Source: Flavobacteriales bacterium
GTDB lineage: Bacteria > Bacteroidota > Bacteroidia > Flavobacteriales_D > Sanyastnellaceae
NCBI GenBank assembly: GCA_019694805.1
Contig: JAIBBG010000002.1
Span: 1 to 64,000 of the forward strand
Length of the DNA stretch: 64,000 bases
Reading direction: 5' to 3'
A program made the translations under genes and the position numbers. Below, one piece after another: positions 35,134 through 42,993 of the stretch. The notes beneath the pieces are model-generated. The model saw only the letters and a program-made list of their open reading frames with translations. It made no database searches and was not told the origin of the DNA. Numbering within the stretch: the stretch's first letter is position 1; every line of letters starts with the position of its first letter.

Positions 35134-35177
35134 GTTTGATATCCCAGTGCTAATCACCTGATTTGATATTACGGAAA

Positions 35178-36146
35178 ATGAATTTTTTTAAGAGACTCTT
35201 CAGTTCAGAAAAGAAGGAAACCCTCAATCAGGGTCTCGAAAAGACCCGTACCGGTTTTTTCTCTAAACTGGCTAAAATCATTGTCGGCAAAAGTCAGGTC
35301 GATGACGAAGTACTCGATAACCTTGAAGAACTATTGATCAGTAGCGATGTTGGAGTAGAAACAACACTTAAAATCATACGCAACATTGAAGATCGTGTGA
35401 AGCGCGACAAGTTCATGGGCACAAATGAACTCAATGAAATTTTGCGCGATGAAATTTCCGGGTTGCTCAAAGGTCATGAAGGCGAAGAATCGGAAAATGT
35501 TCACATTCCTAAAGTCAATGGACCTTATGTCATAATGGTCGTAGGTGTGAATGGTGTAGGTAAGACGACCACGATCGGAAAACTTGCCAATCAGTTGAAA
35601 TCTCAGGGAAAGAAAGTGATGCTTGGCGCCGCAGATACTTTTCGTGCCGCGGCTGTTGATCAGCTTAAAATATGGAGTGAAAGGGCCGGAGTGCCTATCG
35701 TAGCCCAAGGTATGGGATCCGATCCTGCCAGTGTGGCATTCGATACCCTGCAAAGTGCGGTCGCTCAAAATATGGATGTCGTATTGATTGACACTGCGGG
35801 AAGACTACACAATAAAGTCGGGTTGATGAACGAATTGACGAAAATCAAAAGAGTCATGCAGAAGGTGATGCCAGATGCACCTCATGAAGTCTTACTCGTT
35901 TTGGATGGTTCAACTGGTCAGAATGCTTTCGAGCAGGCAAAACAATTTACTGCGGCCACTGAAGTATCGGCGTTAGCCATCACCAAAATCGACGGCACAG
36001 CGAAAGGCGGTGTTGTGATCGGTATCAGCGATCAGTTTAGCATTCCTGTGAAATACATTGGTGTGGGGGAGAAAATAGGAGATTTGCAGGTATTCAACCG
36101 ATTCGAATTCGTCGACTCTTTGTTCAACGCAAATCAAGAGAAGTAA
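35178..36146 (+). CDS. ftsY: Signal recognition particle receptor FtsY
   Basis: FtsY receives SRP-ribosome complexes at the inner membrane and hydrolyses GTP together with Ffh. The 322-aa protein has a short N-terminal region in place of the long acidic A domain, then the NG domain: G1 GVNGVGKTTTIGKLA (about 124-138), DTFRAAAVDQL, G3 DTAGRLHN, G4 TKIDGTAKGG, and KYIGVGEKIGDLQ. ATG 35178 is used; an upstream TTG at 35163 is less likely. It probably has a separate promoter because a terminator lies upstream. Confidence 0.97.
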   Translation: MNFFKRLFSSEKKETLNQGLEKTRTGFFSKLAKIIVGKSQVDDEVLDNLEELLISSDVGVETTLKIIRNIEDRVKRDKFMGTNELNEILRDEISGLLKGHEGEESENVHIPKVNGPYVIMVVGVNGVGKTTTIGKLANQLKSQGKKVMLGAADTFRAAAVDQLKIWSERAGVPIVAQGMGSDPASVAFDTLQSAVAQNMDVVLIDTAGRLHNKVGLMNELTKIKRVMQKVMPDAPHEVLLVLDGSTGQNAFEQAKQFTAATEVSALAITKIDGTAKGGVVIGISDQFSIPVKYIGVGEKIGDLQVFNRFEFVDSLFNANQEK

Positions 36147-36157
36147 TTCAGTGAGTA

Positions 36158-36181
36158 GAGCTTGAGTGTGAGTTTAAGCTC
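36158..36181. terminator. Hairpin between convergent ftsY and siaC-like genes
   Basis: GAGCTT (36158-36163) pairs with AAGCTC (36176-36181) across a 12-nt loop between two convergent stops. Short stem and no long T run; a weak terminator call. Confidence 0.35.
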
Positions 36182-36551
36182 AGTTACTGATCTTGATGTC
36201 GATACCTAATATTCCCTGAAAAGATTCTGCTGCTTCCAGCATAAATTCGTCATCGTCTTCAACAAACCAATCGATCACCCAATCATTTCCTGAGACGATT
36301 CCCTCCTTAATTCTTTCCAACAATATGAGGATAGCTTTCATTGTTGCAGAATTGAAGTAAGGCAGATTGAATTCAAAAGTGGCACTTCGAGGAAGTTCGC
36401 TTTCGTTTTCATTCATCCAGGCAACAATATTTTGGTAAAATTCAAAAGCATTGATAGGTGTGCTGATTCCTTTAACCCTGAAAGTATTTTCACCAGGGTG
36501 GTAATAAATTTCAGGAGTGCTTTTTGTCGGAGCGATGATGAGTTTGCTCAT
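36180..36551 (-). CDS. SiaC-like DUF1987 regulatory phosphoprotein
   Basis: A 123-aa cytoplasmic protein of the DUF1987/SiaC family: PTKSTPEIYYHPGENTFRVKGIS, FNLPYFNSATMKAILILLERI and DWFVEDDDEFMLEAAE. In Pseudomonas aeruginosa SiaC is phosphorylated on a threonine by SiaB, dephosphorylated by SiaA, and activates a diguanylate cyclase. The equivalent acceptor is likely Ser or Thr in FNSATMK. It follows siaB by 12 bp and is last in the four-gene operon. No diguanylate cyclase is in the window, so its target here is unknown. Confidence 0.9.
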   Translation of the reverse strand: MSKLIIAPTKSTPEIYYHPGENTFRVKGISTPINAFEFYQNIVAWMNENESELPRSATFEFNLPYFNSATMKAILILLERIKEGIVSGNDWVIDWFVEDDDEFMLEAAESFQGILGIDIKISN

Positions 36552-36563
36552 GGTTAGGGTGGC

Positions 36564-37052
36564 TTAAAATTTTTTGATAGGAGTGACAATTTTGCAAATG
36601 CAAACATACTCTCCAAGAGCTGAAACATCAACATGTACATCGATAGAAACAGCTCCTTTTCTAAGCATTTGAAGTAATCCTAATCCGGCACCGCCTTTTT
36701 TTCCAAAATGCGGTTCGAGCATCACCTTTCTGAATTCATTGTTTTTTTCTTCTTCAGAAAATGATTTAATCATGTCGGCTTGCTCACGAAGTCTAAATGC
36801 ATCGTCTTCCTGAGCGCGATTTTGTAATTCAAATGTGATATGATCGTTTTGAATAACCCATGAAAAGGAAATGTTGTCGTCAACACTATATCGCATGCCG
36901 TTGTCCAACAATTCAATGGCAAAACTGCATATTTTTCTCAGGTCCTTCCTGGCACCGAGGTTTCTTGTAAGAATACCATTGAGTAGATCAACAAACTCGA
37001 CAATACAATGCTCATCGATTTTGCCAAAATAATTAAGCGCGTTTTCTTTCAT
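36564..37052 (-). CDS. SiaB-like GHKL protein kinase
   Basis: A 162-aa protein with a GHKL ATPase layout: N-box AIELLDNGMRYS (Glu/Asp-Asn), hinge DFELQN-type strand (ITFELQNRA), and glycine-rich G2 loop GKKGGAGLGLLQMLRKG. This is the SiaB/DUF6272 class, which phosphorylates SiaC. Its start lies 20 bp inside the 3' end of the SiaA-like phosphatase gene, so translation is coupled. Together the three genes form a complete partner-switching set. Confidence 0.9.
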   Translation of the reverse strand: MKENALNYFGKIDEHCIVEFVDLLNGILTRNLGARKDLRKICSFAIELLDNGMRYSVDDNISFSWVIQNDHITFELQNRAQEDDAFRLREQADMIKSFSEEEKNNEFRKVMLEPHFGKKGGAGLGLLQMLRKGAVSIDVHVDVSALGEYVCICKIVTPIKKF

Positions 37053-39573
37053 GATATCTGGGTTGATTTAGTTCAATACCTATGAGTACAATGTCATCAG
37101 TCTGAATGGTGTCACCTTTCCATTCTTCAAAAGCTTCCAGCAGCTTAGCCCGCAATACTTCCATGGGCTGATGGTGCATTTGCTGGAAGATGGCTGTTAG
37201 CCTTTTCATGGAAAATTTCTTGGCTCCATTTTCACCACCGAATTGGTGAATGAATCCATCACTCAAGAGGAAAATCCGATCCTGTTCTTCAAGCTGTCGA
37301 GAATGGGTTGGGAAATCAGGACATTCTTGATTGCGATAAATATCTCCTACAGACTGCATTTCGCCTTTGATACGTTCACAACCGCTATCGTTCACAATAA
37401 TCACAGGAAGGTTTGCACCGGCAAACTCAACATCATTTGTGTCGAGGTTGATTTTGCAAAGTCCAATGTCAATACCTGATGCGAAATTGGGGTTGGAATA
37501 TCTTTTTTTCAATGACTCTCCAAGACGATCGTGCAACTGACTCAATAATTGGCCACACAATATGTCTTGCTTTTCATTGATGATTTCTGTGAGGTTGTAG
37601 TAAGCCATGAAACTGAGCATTGCTGCTGGTACACCATGGCCGATACAATCTATGGCGCCGATGTAAAGCGAGGATTCCTTTCTCACAATAAATGGAATAT
37701 CTCCGCTAACAATATCCAATGGCTGATAAATCAGGAAACTTTTTTCCATTTGAGCCTGGAATACTTCTTCTGCCGGTATAATGGTGTCCTGAAAATTGCG
37801 GGCGTAATGAATACTCGAAATGATTTCTTCATGTTGTCCGGCCAGCTGTTCATTCGCCATCTGCACATTGATGTTGCTCAAGTGAATCAACCGGTTTTTT
37901 TGACGCATGATGTACAAATTATAAAGCACGTATCCCAGAATGAATACCAACAATCCGATACCAACAGTCCATAATTTGCGTTCACTTGCCTGTTGTTCAA
38001 CTTCAATTTCTTTGAGTTTGCGTTCACTTTCCAAAAGGATATTTTCCTTTTTCAAAAGTTCATATTCTTTTTGCCTTTCATCGTTGGCATGTGAAAGCTC
38101 AGTGAGTTTAAGCTGTTCTGCAGTTTTTTCCCCTTGAAGTTGGGCAATCGTGCGTATTTGTTGTTCTGACTGGAGTGCCGCTCTTACGAGTTCAAGCTCT
38201 CGTTGTGCTTTGTCTCTTGCTGTTTGTTCGTTGACGAGTTCGGCCTGCTGTAATTCACGCTCGAATTTGAGCTCATTCATTTCCTGATCTCGCTGTGATT
38301 GTTCAAGTTGTTGTCTCAATCGAAGCCTTGATTCTTCTTCAGCCGCAATACCCATCAGTACTAATTTCTCTTTGCTTGATATCGCAACAGATTTTTCATA
38401 ACTGCTTGTATTGTGTTGCTTTTTTTGTTTCTCGAATTCTTTACGCTGAATTTCAGACTTGCGCTTGAATTCAGAAGCAATCAACTGATCACCGCTTTTG
38501 TTCGCCAATGATGACATCAGGTTGTACAATTCACTATGAAGAAGCGGGTCATCGATCTCTGATGCTACGTTTAGTGCATCGTTGCCAGTTGTAATCGCAT
38601 TGGACATATCACCAAGACTACTCAATATTCTAGCTTTCAAGGCCAATGTGAGACTGTGATTTTTTGGAGAAGGATATTTACTGTAAATCCCTTCTGCGAG
38701 TTCTATGGCTGCAAATGCGCGTGTTGTTTGACTTTTCTTGAATAGGGTTGTAGCGATATTCAAGAGTATCTCCGCAGTGCCAATACTTTGGTCGCTTTTA
38801 AAATTCAGAGCATTTTCAAGGTGTGTGAGTGCAAGGTCGTATTCACCCAAATCTAAATAAAGTGAACCTAAATTGTTTTCACAGATGGATTTATCTGTAG
38901 CATCACCATCCTGTTCAAGAAGAATTCTCAATTTGCTTTCATTCTTCAATGCACCACTGATATCGCCGGAACGACGCTTGAAGGAGGTGAGTTCGCCCAT
39001 ATAATATCTTTTCAATCCATCATTCGATTGATTGATTAAATCCTCCAAAACCCAAATGGCTTCTGTTGATTTATTGAGGGACCGATAAGCCACAAACAAC
39101 TCATGATTTACAGCAGCTTTGGTATTGGCATCGGTACCTGGGTATTTATCCAGTAATTTGCAATATTCAATGACCTTTTCCCACGCTTCCCATTCATAGA
39201 ATAACTCAATCAATGCAAGGGTGGAACTTGTCTTATAAGAATCAGATACACCTTCAGAGGTTTTGAGCGCACGTATTCCAAAATCCAGTGCCTCGTAAAA
39301 GTTTCCTTTATTGCGATAGATGATAGAAAGGAGTAGCGACGACCTCGCTATTTCGTTTTTTGATTCAAGACCAGAGGCAATTCGATAACCTTCTAAAGCA
39401 ACGGGTGCAGCTTCCGTGTATTTTTTCGATGCGATCAGATCAGTGGCTTGATCAAGAAGTCCCAACATATATTCATGTTGTTGTCCTGGATCTGACTCCT
39501 GCACTGATTGTGCGAGATTCGGATGCGGTGCACACATCAGAAGAATGATCCATATGTTCAAGATCAATCTCAT
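37033..39573 (-). CDS. SiaA-like PP2C/SpoIIE phosphatase with exported TPR sensor region
   Basis: An 846-aa protein. Signal sequence MRLILNIWIILLMCAPHPNLAQ; about 30-390 TPR repeats (NLGSLYLDLGEYDLALTHLENAL, EILLNIATTLFKKSQ); about 395-530 a long Gln/Glu-rich coiled coil; one membrane segment at about 535-556 (WTVGIGLLVFILGYVLYNLYIM); then a cytoplasmic SpoIIE-type phosphatase with IVSGD, AIDCIGHGVPAAMLS and C-terminal TDDIVLIGIEL carrying the metal-binding aspartates. The TPR part should lie in the periplasm and sense protein partners. The start is ATG 39573, overlapping the TonB receptor stop (ATGA). SiaA of Pseudomonas has a different sensor, so this is a variant. Confidence 0.9.
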   Translation of the reverse strand: MRLILNIWIILLMCAPHPNLAQSVQESDPGQQHEYMLGLLDQATDLIASKKYTEAAPVALEGYRIASGLESKNEIARSSLLLSIIYRNKGNFYEALDFGIRALKTSEGVSDSYKTSSTLALIELFYEWEAWEKVIEYCKLLDKYPGTDANTKAAVNHELFVAYRSLNKSTEAIWVLEDLINQSNDGLKRYYMGELTSFKRRSGDISGALKNESKLRILLEQDGDATDKSICENNLGSLYLDLGEYDLALTHLENALNFKSDQSIGTAEILLNIATTLFKKSQTTRAFAAIELAEGIYSKYPSPKNHSLTLALKARILSSLGDMSNAITTGNDALNVASEIDDPLLHSELYNLMSSLANKSGDQLIASEFKRKSEIQRKEFEKQKKQHNTSSYEKSVAISSKEKLVLMGIAAEEESRLRLRQQLEQSQRDQEMNELKFERELQQAELVNEQTARDKAQRELELVRAALQSEQQIRTIAQLQGEKTAEQLKLTELSHANDERQKEYELLKKENILLESERKLKEIEVEQQASERKLWTVGIGLLVFILGYVLYNLYIMRQKNRLIHLSNINVQMANEQLAGQHEEIISSIHYARNFQDTIIPAEEVFQAQMEKSFLIYQPLDIVSGDIPFIVRKESSLYIGAIDCIGHGVPAAMLSFMAYYNLTEIINEKQDILCGQLLSQLHDRLGESLKKRYSNPNFASGIDIGLCKINLDTNDVEFAGANLPVIIVNDSGCERIKGEMQSVGDIYRNQECPDFPTHSRQLEEQDRIFLLSDGFIHQFGGENGAKKFSMKRLTAIFQQMHHQPMEVLRAKLLEAFEEWKGDTIQTDDIVLIGIELNQPRYHERKRA

Positions 39574-41570
39574 GAATTGATATGCCACAATATATTTAAG
39601 GTGAATTGTCTTGCGTATAGAGGCATAGAACCAATGCCATTGACAGCAGGGCTGCAAACTTCAAAACGTTGGTTGAATAGATTATTCAACATGCATTGCA
39701 CTTGAAGTGATTTGAGTTTTTTCGGATGCACAATGATTCCCGTGTTGATCAATGTTGTACTGCCTTTTTTGGTCAAATGGTAGTTGCCAACATCGTCATA
39801 GTCATATGCTTGAAATGAACCAAAGTAAATGCCGGTTGCAAACACATCAACGGATTCTCCGAGATGAACCCTACAGGTCAAAGATGTTTTGTGGTTGGGA
39901 AATCCGAGCATTTGTTTGTTCATGCCTTTGTCCACAACAAGCTCTTTGATGTCTGGACCATGTAATGCCTCATACACACAGAATCCAGCAAGCACATTAA
40001 ATCTATTTCCATTGTAGTGATAACGATAATCAAAACCGTAAGAACCGATCCTATTACCATTGAGATAACCATCAGTCTGCATCGAGTCGGTCACATAAAT
40101 GATCGGGTCAAATATGGAGGTGTGATAAAAAATAGCCTCAAGCGCCGATTGAGTATTCGGAGAATAGCTGATCGATGATTCCAGATTTTTTACGGTCTCA
40201 TGCTTCACGTCTATGGAATCTACACTCAGATTGATATTCTGTATCGTTGGAATTTTAAATGCAGAATTGATCATGAATTTGAATAGCCATTTCTGATACG
40301 ATTTATTCCATGCAAATCGTGGAGCGAAAAGAACAGGTGTGAATGTGTTCTTTTCTACACGGCCTGCAAGTCTCATGATTCCTGCTTTTCCAGCATATAC
40401 CAGTTCGCTGTGTACGGCCAAGTCGCCGAAGTAAATTCTATTCTGATCATTAATATCATAGGTTTGACTTCGGGAAACTATTCTTCCACCTTGTAAATAA
40501 CCTTGTACTCCATTGATCCATGATAAATGCGAACTCAATCTTGTTTCATTTAGGGCATGAACCCTGAAGCGCTGACTGATGGTATTGGTTGAAATAATAT
40601 CCGGATCGGCATTATTCAAATTAAACCATGGCATTTGATAGTTGTATACACTCTTAAAATTGAAAGAGGACTTTTCACTGAAATGTTTGCTGAATTGATT
40701 CTGCCACGCCAATCCAAACATCATGATGCTATAATCTTCATCGCTTACATTGTACGTGTAATTGTTTAAATATAACTGTGAACTAAACCTCTTTTTGGTT
40801 ATTCCCAAATACAACTGTTGGGTATTGATTCTGGTACTATCACCGTACGAGATTGGCGTATTGTCGCTTCGATAATCTGTCCAGGTGCTCCTCAGCGAAT
40901 TGCGCAGTATGGCCTGCAATGTTACATAGGTGTCTTTGCTGATCTGGTGATTACTCACTATACCCGCACTATTGTCCGATAAGTAACCGTTCGAGATTGT
41001 ATTCTGGCTGTTAATACTTGTTCCGGATTGCTCCTGAGGTGTTTTCAATACAACATTGATTACACCTAATGCGGCAAATCCTCCGTGAACCACAGAACCA
41101 GGCCCGTTCATGATCTCAATTCGATTGATATTGGAAATTGGAAACCTGCCTCCGAGCGCATAAGTACCGAAATCGAGGTCATTCAGAGGCATACCGTTCA
41201 CCATGATCATCACTTTGCCTTCATGAGCCCAAAGCCCACGCATTCCAATACCAATCACATCATCGACATCCCTCCCCAGCGAGATACCGGGGATGGCATT
41301 CAATACATCCATCAGGTCTGTAGCTCCCATGGCGCGTATCTGCGCATTGGTGATTACCAAAACGGCACCAGGTGTTTCTCTGATGTCTTCTTCACGGAAA
41401 CCTGATACGGATGATTTGTGCGTTTGCAGCTGTATGGTGCTGTCTTCCCGGAGTACCTTGTAAATATTACCCAACAGCAATTGCTCACCGATGGTGTCTT
41501 GCTGACCAAAGATGTTACACGCGAATGCCGCGGCTATCAGGGTGGATATGATGGAGAGGTTTGACCTCAT
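39570..41570 (-). CDS. TonB-dependent outer-membrane receptor
   Basis: A 666-aa exported receptor (signal peptide ending FG/QQ). The plug domain (about 45-165) has DIRETPGAVLVITNAQIRAMGATDLMDVLNAIPGISLGRDVDD and IEIMNGPGSVVHGG; the barrel ends with RFEVCSPAVNG...LYARQFTLNILW. There is no N-terminal carboxypeptidase-like repeat, unlike SusC-type receptors. The substrate is unknown: no transport or polysaccharide genes are nearby. It is the first gene of the operon with siaA, siaB and siaC homologues and overlaps siaA by 4 bp, so it may serve in signalling or deliver a signal. Confidence 0.92.
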   Translation of the reverse strand: MRSNLSIISTLIAAAFACNIFGQQDTIGEQLLLGNIYKVLREDSTIQLQTHKSSVSGFREEDIRETPGAVLVITNAQIRAMGATDLMDVLNAIPGISLGRDVDDVIGIGMRGLWAHEGKVMIMVNGMPLNDLDFGTYALGGRFPISNINRIEIMNGPGSVVHGGFAALGVINVVLKTPQEQSGTSINSQNTISNGYLSDNSAGIVSNHQISKDTYVTLQAILRNSLRSTWTDYRSDNTPISYGDSTRINTQQLYLGITKKRFSSQLYLNNYTYNVSDEDYSIMMFGLAWQNQFSKHFSEKSSFNFKSVYNYQMPWFNLNNADPDIISTNTISQRFRVHALNETRLSSHLSWINGVQGYLQGGRIVSRSQTYDINDQNRIYFGDLAVHSELVYAGKAGIMRLAGRVEKNTFTPVLFAPRFAWNKSYQKWLFKFMINSAFKIPTIQNINLSVDSIDVKHETVKNLESSISYSPNTQSALEAIFYHTSIFDPIIYVTDSMQTDGYLNGNRIGSYGFDYRYHYNGNRFNVLAGFCVYEALHGPDIKELVVDKGMNKQMLGFPNHKTSLTCRVHLGESVDVFATGIYFGSFQAYDYDDVGNYHLTKKGSTTLINTGIIVHPKKLKSLQVQCMLNNLFNQRFEVCSPAVNGIGSMPLYARQFTLNILWHINS

Positions 41571-41679
41571 TGCCTCATTCAGAGGAGTTTATTCCGGTCT
41601 TCTACGGAAAATGGCCCTGATTGTTTCATGAAGGAAAGTCAAGTGGCAGAACTGAGAATGTTTCTTTCCTTTGCAGCAC

Positions 41680-42993
41680 ATGAAAACAAAGACGCTAAGG
41701 AAAAATAAGGTCAATGTCATCACCCTGGGATGCGCCAAGAATATCTTCGATAGTGAAGTGATGATGGCACAATTGAAGGCGAATCATTTTGATGTTGAAC
41801 ACGAGTCCACAGAGCAGGATTCCGAAATTGTCATCATCAACACTTGTGGATTTATTGATAATGCCAAGGAAGAAAGCATCAATACGATACTCAATTGGGC
41901 CAGAGAGAAAGAGCAAGGTCGTGTAGACAAATTGTACGTGACAGGTTGCCTCAGCGAAAGGTATAAACCGGAGTTAGAAAAGGATATTCCTGAAGTGGAT
42001 GCATTTTTTGGTACACGTGAACTTCCACGATTACTCAAGACACTGAAGGCGGATTATAAACATGAATTGGTAGGAGAAAGATTGCTCACTACGCCGTCGC
42101 ATTATGCATATTTCAAAATATCGGAAGGATGCGACAGACCTTGTTCATTTTGTGCCATTCCACTGATGAGGGGTAAACATGTGAGCACCCCGATCGATGA
42201 ATTGGTTGCTGGTGCACAAAAACTTGCTGCAAAAGGAACCAAGGAACTCATTTTGATCGCACAGGATCTCACTTACTACGGACTCGATGTCGCCAAAAAA
42301 AGAGAATTGCCCGAATTACTTCGCAGATTAAGCGATGTGGAAGGTATTGAATGGATCAGATTGCAATATGCTTTCCCATCAGGTTTTCCAATGGAAGTGC
42401 TCGATGTGATGAATGAAAGAAAAAACATCTGCAAGTATCTTGATATGCCATTACAACATGCGACCACCAAAATGCTCACTGCGATGCGACGCGGTATTAC
42501 CAGGGAAAAGACGGATGCACTGATCTCTGAAATTCGAAACAAGGTTCCTGATATTGCCCTTCGTACAACCCTGATCACTGGTTTTCCTGGAGAAAGCAAA
42601 GAAGATTTTGAGGAAATGAAAGCTTGGGTGGAATCAACCCGATTTGATAGACTCGGTGTCTTTCAATATTCTCATGAAGAAAACACACATGCTTATGGAA
42701 TGAAGGATGATGTTCCAGCCAAGGTGAAAAAGAAAAGAGCCGATGAAATCATGGAAATTCAATCTCAAATCAGTTATGAGTTGAATCAGGAAAAAATAGG
42801 GAAGTCGTATCGAGTGCTCATCGATCGTATTGAAGGAGACTATTTTGTTGGAAGAACAGAATTCGATTCACCTGAGGTAGACAATGAAGTACTCATATCC
42901 AAGAAGGAGTATTATGTGAGAGTCGGCGACATGGTGCAAGTGAAAATAGAAAAGGCAGAACACTACGATCTGTATGCCATTCCAACGAATTAA
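41680..42993 (+). CDS. rimO: Ribosomal protein S12 methylthiotransferase RimO
   Basis: RimO adds a methylthio group to Asp in ribosomal protein S12 using radical SAM chemistry. The 437-aa protein has the UPF0004 domain (VNVITLGCAKNIFDSEVMM, INTCGFIDNAKEES, VTGCLSERY: three cluster cysteines), the radical SAM CxxxCxxC motif in SEGCDRPCSFCAIP, DLTYYGLD, and a C-terminal TRAM domain (GKSYRVLIDRIEGDYFVGRTEFDSPEVDNEV). ATG 41680 is used. It heads an operon with the potassium channel (11-bp gap). Confidence 0.96.
   Translation: MKTKTLRKNKVNVITLGCAKNIFDSEVMMAQLKANHFDVEHESTEQDSEIVIINTCGFIDNAKEESINTILNWAREKEQGRVDKLYVTGCLSERYKPELEKDIPEVDAFFGTRELPRLLKTLKADYKHELVGERLLTTPSHYAYFKISEGCDRPCSFCAIPLMRGKHVSTPIDELVAGAQKLAAKGTKELILIAQDLTYYGLDVAKKRELPELLRRLSDVEGIEWIRLQYAFPSGFPMEVLDVMNERKNICKYLDMPLQHATTKMLTAMRRGITREKTDALISEIRNKVPDIALRTTLITGFPGESKEDFEEMKAWVESTRFDRLGVFQYSHEENTHAYGMKDDVPAKVKKKRADEIMEIQSQISYELNQEKIGKSYRVLIDRIEGDYFVGRTEFDSPEVDNEVLISKKEYYVRVGDMVQVKIEKAEHYDLYAIPTN

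Follow-up and report, generated by a model that had tools for sequence, protein, structure and literature searches.

Bacteria use partner switches as one of their main types of serine/threonine phosphorylation circuit, and no such switch with an outer-membrane input is known to us. TonB-dependent transducers of the FecA/FpvA type carry an N-terminal STN domain and have a FecR-type anti-sigma factor as partner. In the SiaABCD system of Pseudomonas aeruginosa, Thr68 of SiaC is the phosphorylated residue (PMC7647112), and SiaD, a diguanylate cyclase, is activated by SiaC in its unphosphorylated form (PMC8457831). In the same organism, the periplasmic protein YfiR moves back and forth between a protein of the outer membrane and an effector in the inner membrane (PMC3375315).

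The window analyzed here (a stretch of 64,000 nucleotides from a Flavobacteriales bacterium) carries, between ftsY and rimO, a TonB-dependent-type receptor gene together with siaA, siaB and siaC. All four genes lie on the minus strand and run in the same direction, and the features of the locus are the following:

35163..36146, plus strand: ftsY, the flank used to anchor the locus in comparisons (~90% identity in congeners, at the same place)
36180..36551, minus strand: SiaC phosphoprotein, 123 aa (PF09345, E 5.8e-27)
36564..37052, minus strand: SiaB-like GHKL kinase, 162 aa (DUF6272, PF19788, E 6.6e-13)
37033..39573, minus strand: SiaA-like phosphatase, 846 aa (TPR; SpoIIE PF07228, E 4.1e-20)
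39570..39573, minus strand: ATGA common to the receptor stop and the SiaA start, as read in the sequence
39570..41570, minus strand: TonB-dependent-type outer-membrane receptor, 666 aa (Plug PF07715, E 1.3e-17)
41671..42993, plus strand: rimO, the other flank, divergent from the receptor (~80% identity in congeners; same place in G027 and G1010)

The receptor gene is the first of the operon, siaA and siaB overlap by 20 bp, and siaB and siaC are 12 bp apart; when the sequence was read again, the gene order, coordinates, overlaps and gap given in the earlier note proved exact. The ATGA overlap likely provides translational coupling between receptor and siaA, and from the gene overlaps co-transcription of the cluster is likely. 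Scans for promoters and terminators gave results little or no better than those with shuffled sequence.

The SiaA-like protein has a signal peptide, a modelled TPR superhelix (residues ~29-360), a helical/coiled-coil arm (363-598) that includes the one membrane helix detected by hydropathy (~535-556), and a SpoIIE/PP2C domain (~600-835). Because an N-terminal signal peptide is combined with a single membrane helix, the TPR arm should be periplasmic and the PP2C domain cytoplasmic. The top structural match of the latter is 6k4e, the PP2C domain of P. aeruginosa SiaA; PF07228 scores above its cut-off, the metal-binding aspartates D625, D642, D772 and D826/D827 are invariant, and NF038263 (prot_phos_SiaA) is matched in part, over residues 570-833. 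SiaB matches DUF6272 above the gathering cut-off and NF038262 (SiaB_fam_kinase) with 43.9 bits (E 1.8e-11; cut-off 85), its kinase motifs ELxDN and GGAGLG are invariant in 12 relatives, and a sequence search against solved structures gave no match for it. SiaC aligns without gaps to 6kko, P. aeruginosa SiaC, so that Ser68 stands opposite Thr68, and this putative phosphosite is Ser or Thr in the relatives that were read. None of the three proteins reaches the NCBIfam cut-off set for its P. aeruginosa equivalog or subfamily. The locus resembles SiaABCD (PMC7647112, PMC8457831) in its membrane-anchored PP2C, its putative SiaB-family kinase and the position of the putative SiaC phosphosite, but differs from it in the predicted periplasmic TPR/coiled-coil sensor arm, in the receptor gene that comes first, and in a genome without SiaD or any GGDEF protein.

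This genome (3.85 Mb, 99.5% complete) encodes seven SpoIIE proteins and two further SiaC genes with no receptor nearby. One of these (L027:8859-9233) stands alone next to a large ABC transporter protein, and the other (L028:8280-9788) has a double-length SiaB and a divergent TPR-SpoIIE protein as its neighbours. The remark in the earlier note that no diguanylate cyclase is near the locus was borne out, and no GGDEF domain was found in the whole assembly either, so that SiaC must have a partner other than SiaD; a c-di-GMP/SiaD output was ruled out here on this ground. Among 60 genomes searched, a GGDEF domain above cut-off was found in only one, and SiaC in 55. The locus also raises the question of what SiaC targets in those Bacteroidia that lack a diguanylate cyclase and almost always encode SiaC.

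The receptor consists of a signal peptide, an unstructured segment (residues ~19-50), a plug and a beta barrel. Its AlphaFold2 model is a plug-barrel structure (pLDDT 85.8, pTM 0.86), for which Foldseek returned BtuB and other TonB-dependent transporters (TBDTs) as the closest solved folds, FhuA and FepA being matched as well; together with the PF07715 match, this gives the protein the plug and barrel of a TBDT. A ligand was not deduced from the likeness to BtuB, since the identity is 16-17% and every TBDT matches. The domain search returned Plug only, and neither this search nor the AlphaFold2 model revealed an STN or carboxypeptidase-like domain; between ftsY and rimO no anti-sigma partner or STN-type gene was found. 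A FecA-type transducer was ruled out on the missing STN domain and the unstructured residues 19-50. What the receptor would share with FecA and FpvA is that a TonB-type receptor is thought to signal besides binding its ligand; unlike them, it has no N-terminal STN and no FecR-type anti-sigma factor, and its partner would be a TPR-PP2C phosphatase.

We then analyzed how far receptor and siaA occur together. The family sample comprised 114 genomes, many of them fragmented draft MAGs in which contig ends conceal some neighbours. The receptor was found in seven of these; in an eighth (G073) its C-terminal portion, cut off by a contig edge, directly precedes SiaA. The cognate SiaA, which in most cases matches along the TPR part too and is separated by a score gap from generic SpoIIE proteins, was present in exactly the same 8 of the 114 genomes and nowhere else (Fisher 1.8e-12, with relatedness ignored). 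Wherever both gene ends could be read, the two genes were adjacent, with a spacing of -4 to +18 bp among family members and +23 bp in G202; the cases other than the locus described here span -1 to +23 bp. A contig end separates the pair in G075. In a tree of SiaA catalytic domains, those from receptor-linked genes of the family group together with 100/100 support, distinct from other SpoIIE proteins encoded in the same genomes. G202's SiaA lies outside that clade, so that its pairing may be separate in origin, or recombined.

The same linkage was found beyond the family. As regards co-occurrence in Bacteroidota, a point already raised in the earlier note, the receptor is paired with SiaA-type genes in four families of the class, i.e., f1, f74 (G1010), f101 (G888 and G825, with two SiaB genes, and G1040, with a SiaA-SiaB fusion) and f9 (G202, phosphatase only). 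The linkage is not incidental, a possibility that the earlier note had allowed for, given the same eight genomes in the family and the recurrence of the pairing in others. Comparative genomics supports a conserved pairing of the receptor with the SiaA-type phosphatase and argues for a functional coupling of the two.

In seven congeners the receptor and siaA are both absent from the ftsY-rimO site; siaB is retained in all seven and siaC in six, with about 50-56% identity to those of the window. In one congener (G007) the contig ends within siaB and siaC is on another contig. The arrangement ftsY-siaC-siaB-rimO was also observed in three genomes of other genera (G014, G033 and G023). In the first two of these the receptor-siaA pair is located elsewhere in the genome, siaBC remaining at ftsY-rimO, and in G202, too, siaBC does not adjoin the pair. 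In four genomes of another genus of the family (G010, G072, G073 and G075) the entire cluster adjoins rpoC. At this rpoC site G029 carries a deletion scar (L243:5305-6178), where the last 32 codons of siaA lie between rpoC and an orphan siaB and the receptor, the remainder of siaA and siaC are gone; an orphan siaB occupies the same site in G076 (L244). Overall, siaBC without an adjoining receptor was found in at least nine genomes and siaB alone in two. Loss of the receptor without siaA, or of siaA without the receptor, was never seen, and siaB and siaC vary separately. The case that the earlier note had taken as a sign of incidental coupling, i.e., a missing receptor beside an intact siaABC, was thus observed in its first half in 7 of 7 congeners, but in none of them in its second, as siaA was lost from all. 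The tie that it proposed between receptor and siaABC holds for siaA but not for the block as a whole: because siaBC or siaB persists without the receptor and siaA is always lost with it, the linkage is to SiaA. The putative unit is the receptor plus SiaA; the SiaB-SiaC core would be older, and this input to it optional. Joint loss alone does not prove function, because one deletion can take two neighbours.

The full cluster, in the order ftsY-siaC-siaB-siaA-TBDR-rimO and with extra genes inside, was also found in a genome of another family (G1010), so that the four-gene state at this site is likely ancestral and the receptor-less state a loss; alternatively, the G1010 cluster may have arrived by block transfer. 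The SiaA of this genome (L275:5516-8056) is read in two frames of 141 and 701 aa, 9 bp apart, which reflects a frameshift, an assembly error or a split gene.

These data bear on two other explanations of the arrangement. That the receptor is a functionless passenger beside siaABC would fit the congeners, which retain siaBC without it, but not the occurrence of both genes in the same eight genomes, the clade specificity of the receptors, or the recurrence of the pairing at different sites (the rimO side, the rpoC side and elsewhere) and in other families. This explanation, which we regard as scarcely credible, was ruled out on co-occurrence, synteny and tree. A reversed direction, in which SiaABC would control the receptor or how it is used through feedback or expression, is also highly improbable. 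The likely co-transcription would allow it, but siaBC is kept without an adjoining receptor in the nine or more genomes mentioned above, the receptor gene stands first in the operon, and no DNA-binding component was found.

In searches of the order, the phylum, the class and public genomes, the receptor superfamily was found in Bacteroidota, Acidobacteriota, Elusimicrobiota and Myxococcota, and its Bacteroidota members outside the SiaA-linked group mostly adjoin a YfiR-like DUF4154 gene, often followed by a hybrid histidine kinase. In a tree of 42 receptor rows made with a careful method, several of them on long branches, a branch with 99/97 support separates 12 SiaA-linked receptors from the rest; among them, L277 was included on its tree position, its contig ending 95 codons into the following gene. 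In a quick tree of all 73 receptor rows, the SiaA-linked receptors fell into separate groups next to each other, which the 42-row tree joins. In the class sample, which was selected for likeness to SiaA-linked receptors and searched with neighbourhood family HMMs built from few sequences, YfiR was near 0 of the 12 SiaA-linked loci vs 32 of 36 other receptors. Ahead of the plug the receptors differ too. The sequence there reads LEELL...VAS in most of the other receptors, i.e., the relatives linked to YfiR and kinases, and it is changed in the SiaA-linked clade, where an N-terminal comparison with these relatives left the expected TonB-box segment unrecognisable; this pattern was formulated only after the sequences had been inspected, and the Fisher value calculated for it is merely descriptive. 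The earlier proposal that SiaA might contact the TonB box is therefore weak in that part.

The cluster has the receptor superfamily and the operon logic of the TBDR-YfiR-hybrid histidine kinase operons of Bacteroidota and Acidobacteriota, but TPR-SpoIIE and SiaB/SiaC take the place of YfiR and the histidine kinase. It also recalls YfiBNR and the YfiR/HmsC-like relays (PMC3375315), in which an outer-membrane component signals across the periplasm to an inner-membrane effector, and sister receptors of the superfamily adjoin YfiR-like DUF4154 genes; unlike YfiBNR, it has no YfiR or diguanylate cyclase, and a TBDT-type barrel instead of a Pal-like lipoprotein.

The reading that we favour, and to which we give somewhat better than even chances, is that a cell-surface receptor signals via the periplasmic TPR arm and the PP2C domain of SiaA to the SiaB/SiaC partner switch. 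The receptor would take a ligand from outside, so that its periplasmic face shifts state; the TPR/coiled-coil arm of SiaA would read this state across the periplasm, presumably by contact, and the single membrane helix would relay the signal inwards to the cytoplasmic PP2C domain. By analogy with P. aeruginosa SiaABC, this domain would strip from Ser68 of SiaC the phosphate added by SiaB, and unphosphorylated SiaC would then bind a partner other than a GGDEF enzyme. The TPR arm would replace the separate periplasmic YfiR, which is probably the relay of the sister receptors that stand beside histidine kinases; the mutual exclusion of YfiR and SiaA-type partners points to a transfer of this role to the TPR arm. 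More tentatively, and at slightly less than even chances, we propose that the receptor clade signals directly to PP2C phosphatases via the TPR arm and arose from the YfiR/histidine kinase type by exchange of relay and effector.

An alternative is that receptor and SiaA share an operon but are coupled indirectly, the receptor being an ordinary transporter and the TPR arm sensing the imported substrate or a periplasmic cue with no contact between the two. In its favour, the receptor folds like an ordinary TBDT, with BtuB as the nearest structure, TPR domains are capable of binding peptides or ligands, and SiaA of P. aeruginosa has, to our knowledge, no receptor partner for its signalling. In these genomes, generic SpoIIE proteins without receptors are frequent, and some of them contain TPR repeats. 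By itself, however, indirect coupling leaves unexplained why the SiaA-linked receptors form a separate clade with an altered N-terminus and no YfiR, and we consider it rather unlikely. Under direct signalling from receptor to SiaA, one receptor superfamily would have been connected to no fewer than two kinds of effector, namely histidine kinases and SiaA-type phosphatases, which would provide a natural experiment on how an outer-membrane receptor passes its signal across the periplasm. The stable receptor-SiaA pairing suggests, as far as gene content can tell, an undescribed route from the cell surface to an intracellular partner switch; in the literature searched, to which most subscription journals did not belong, no description was found of a TonB receptor arranged with SpoIIE, partner switching, YfiR or DUF4154.

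Several further arrangements were observed around these genes. Operons of a TBDT-type receptor, a YfiR-like protein and a hybrid histidine kinase were found in Bacteroidota and Acidobacteriota (L072, L085, L169, L170, L171, L303, L305 and L307), on which a literature search turned up no paper, and in Elusimicrobiota (L082) an ABC_sub_bind protein is in YfiR's place. In several families a SpoIIE protein of 587-615 aa is divergent beside the receptor-YfiR pair (L288 ~8203, L292 ~8348, L301 ~8311 and L287 ~8642), so that a further coupling is possible. In L306 (~8485) a superfamily receptor is followed by a 573-aa protein with receiver and SpoIIE matches, which is, judged by its domains, a separate phosphatase linkage outside the SiaA-linked clade. 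In Bacteroidales, a YfiR (DUF4154)-PAS-SpoIIE protein is divergent from a superfamily receptor (L087:1154-3523, minus strand), and its predicted domain design is intermediate. Two tandem siaB genes lie between siaA and siaC in f101 (L278 and L279). Finally, SiaA-SiaB fusions were found in two distant lineages (L022:10298-13282 in G010 and L276:10655-13837 in G1040), which ties SiaA and SiaB together.
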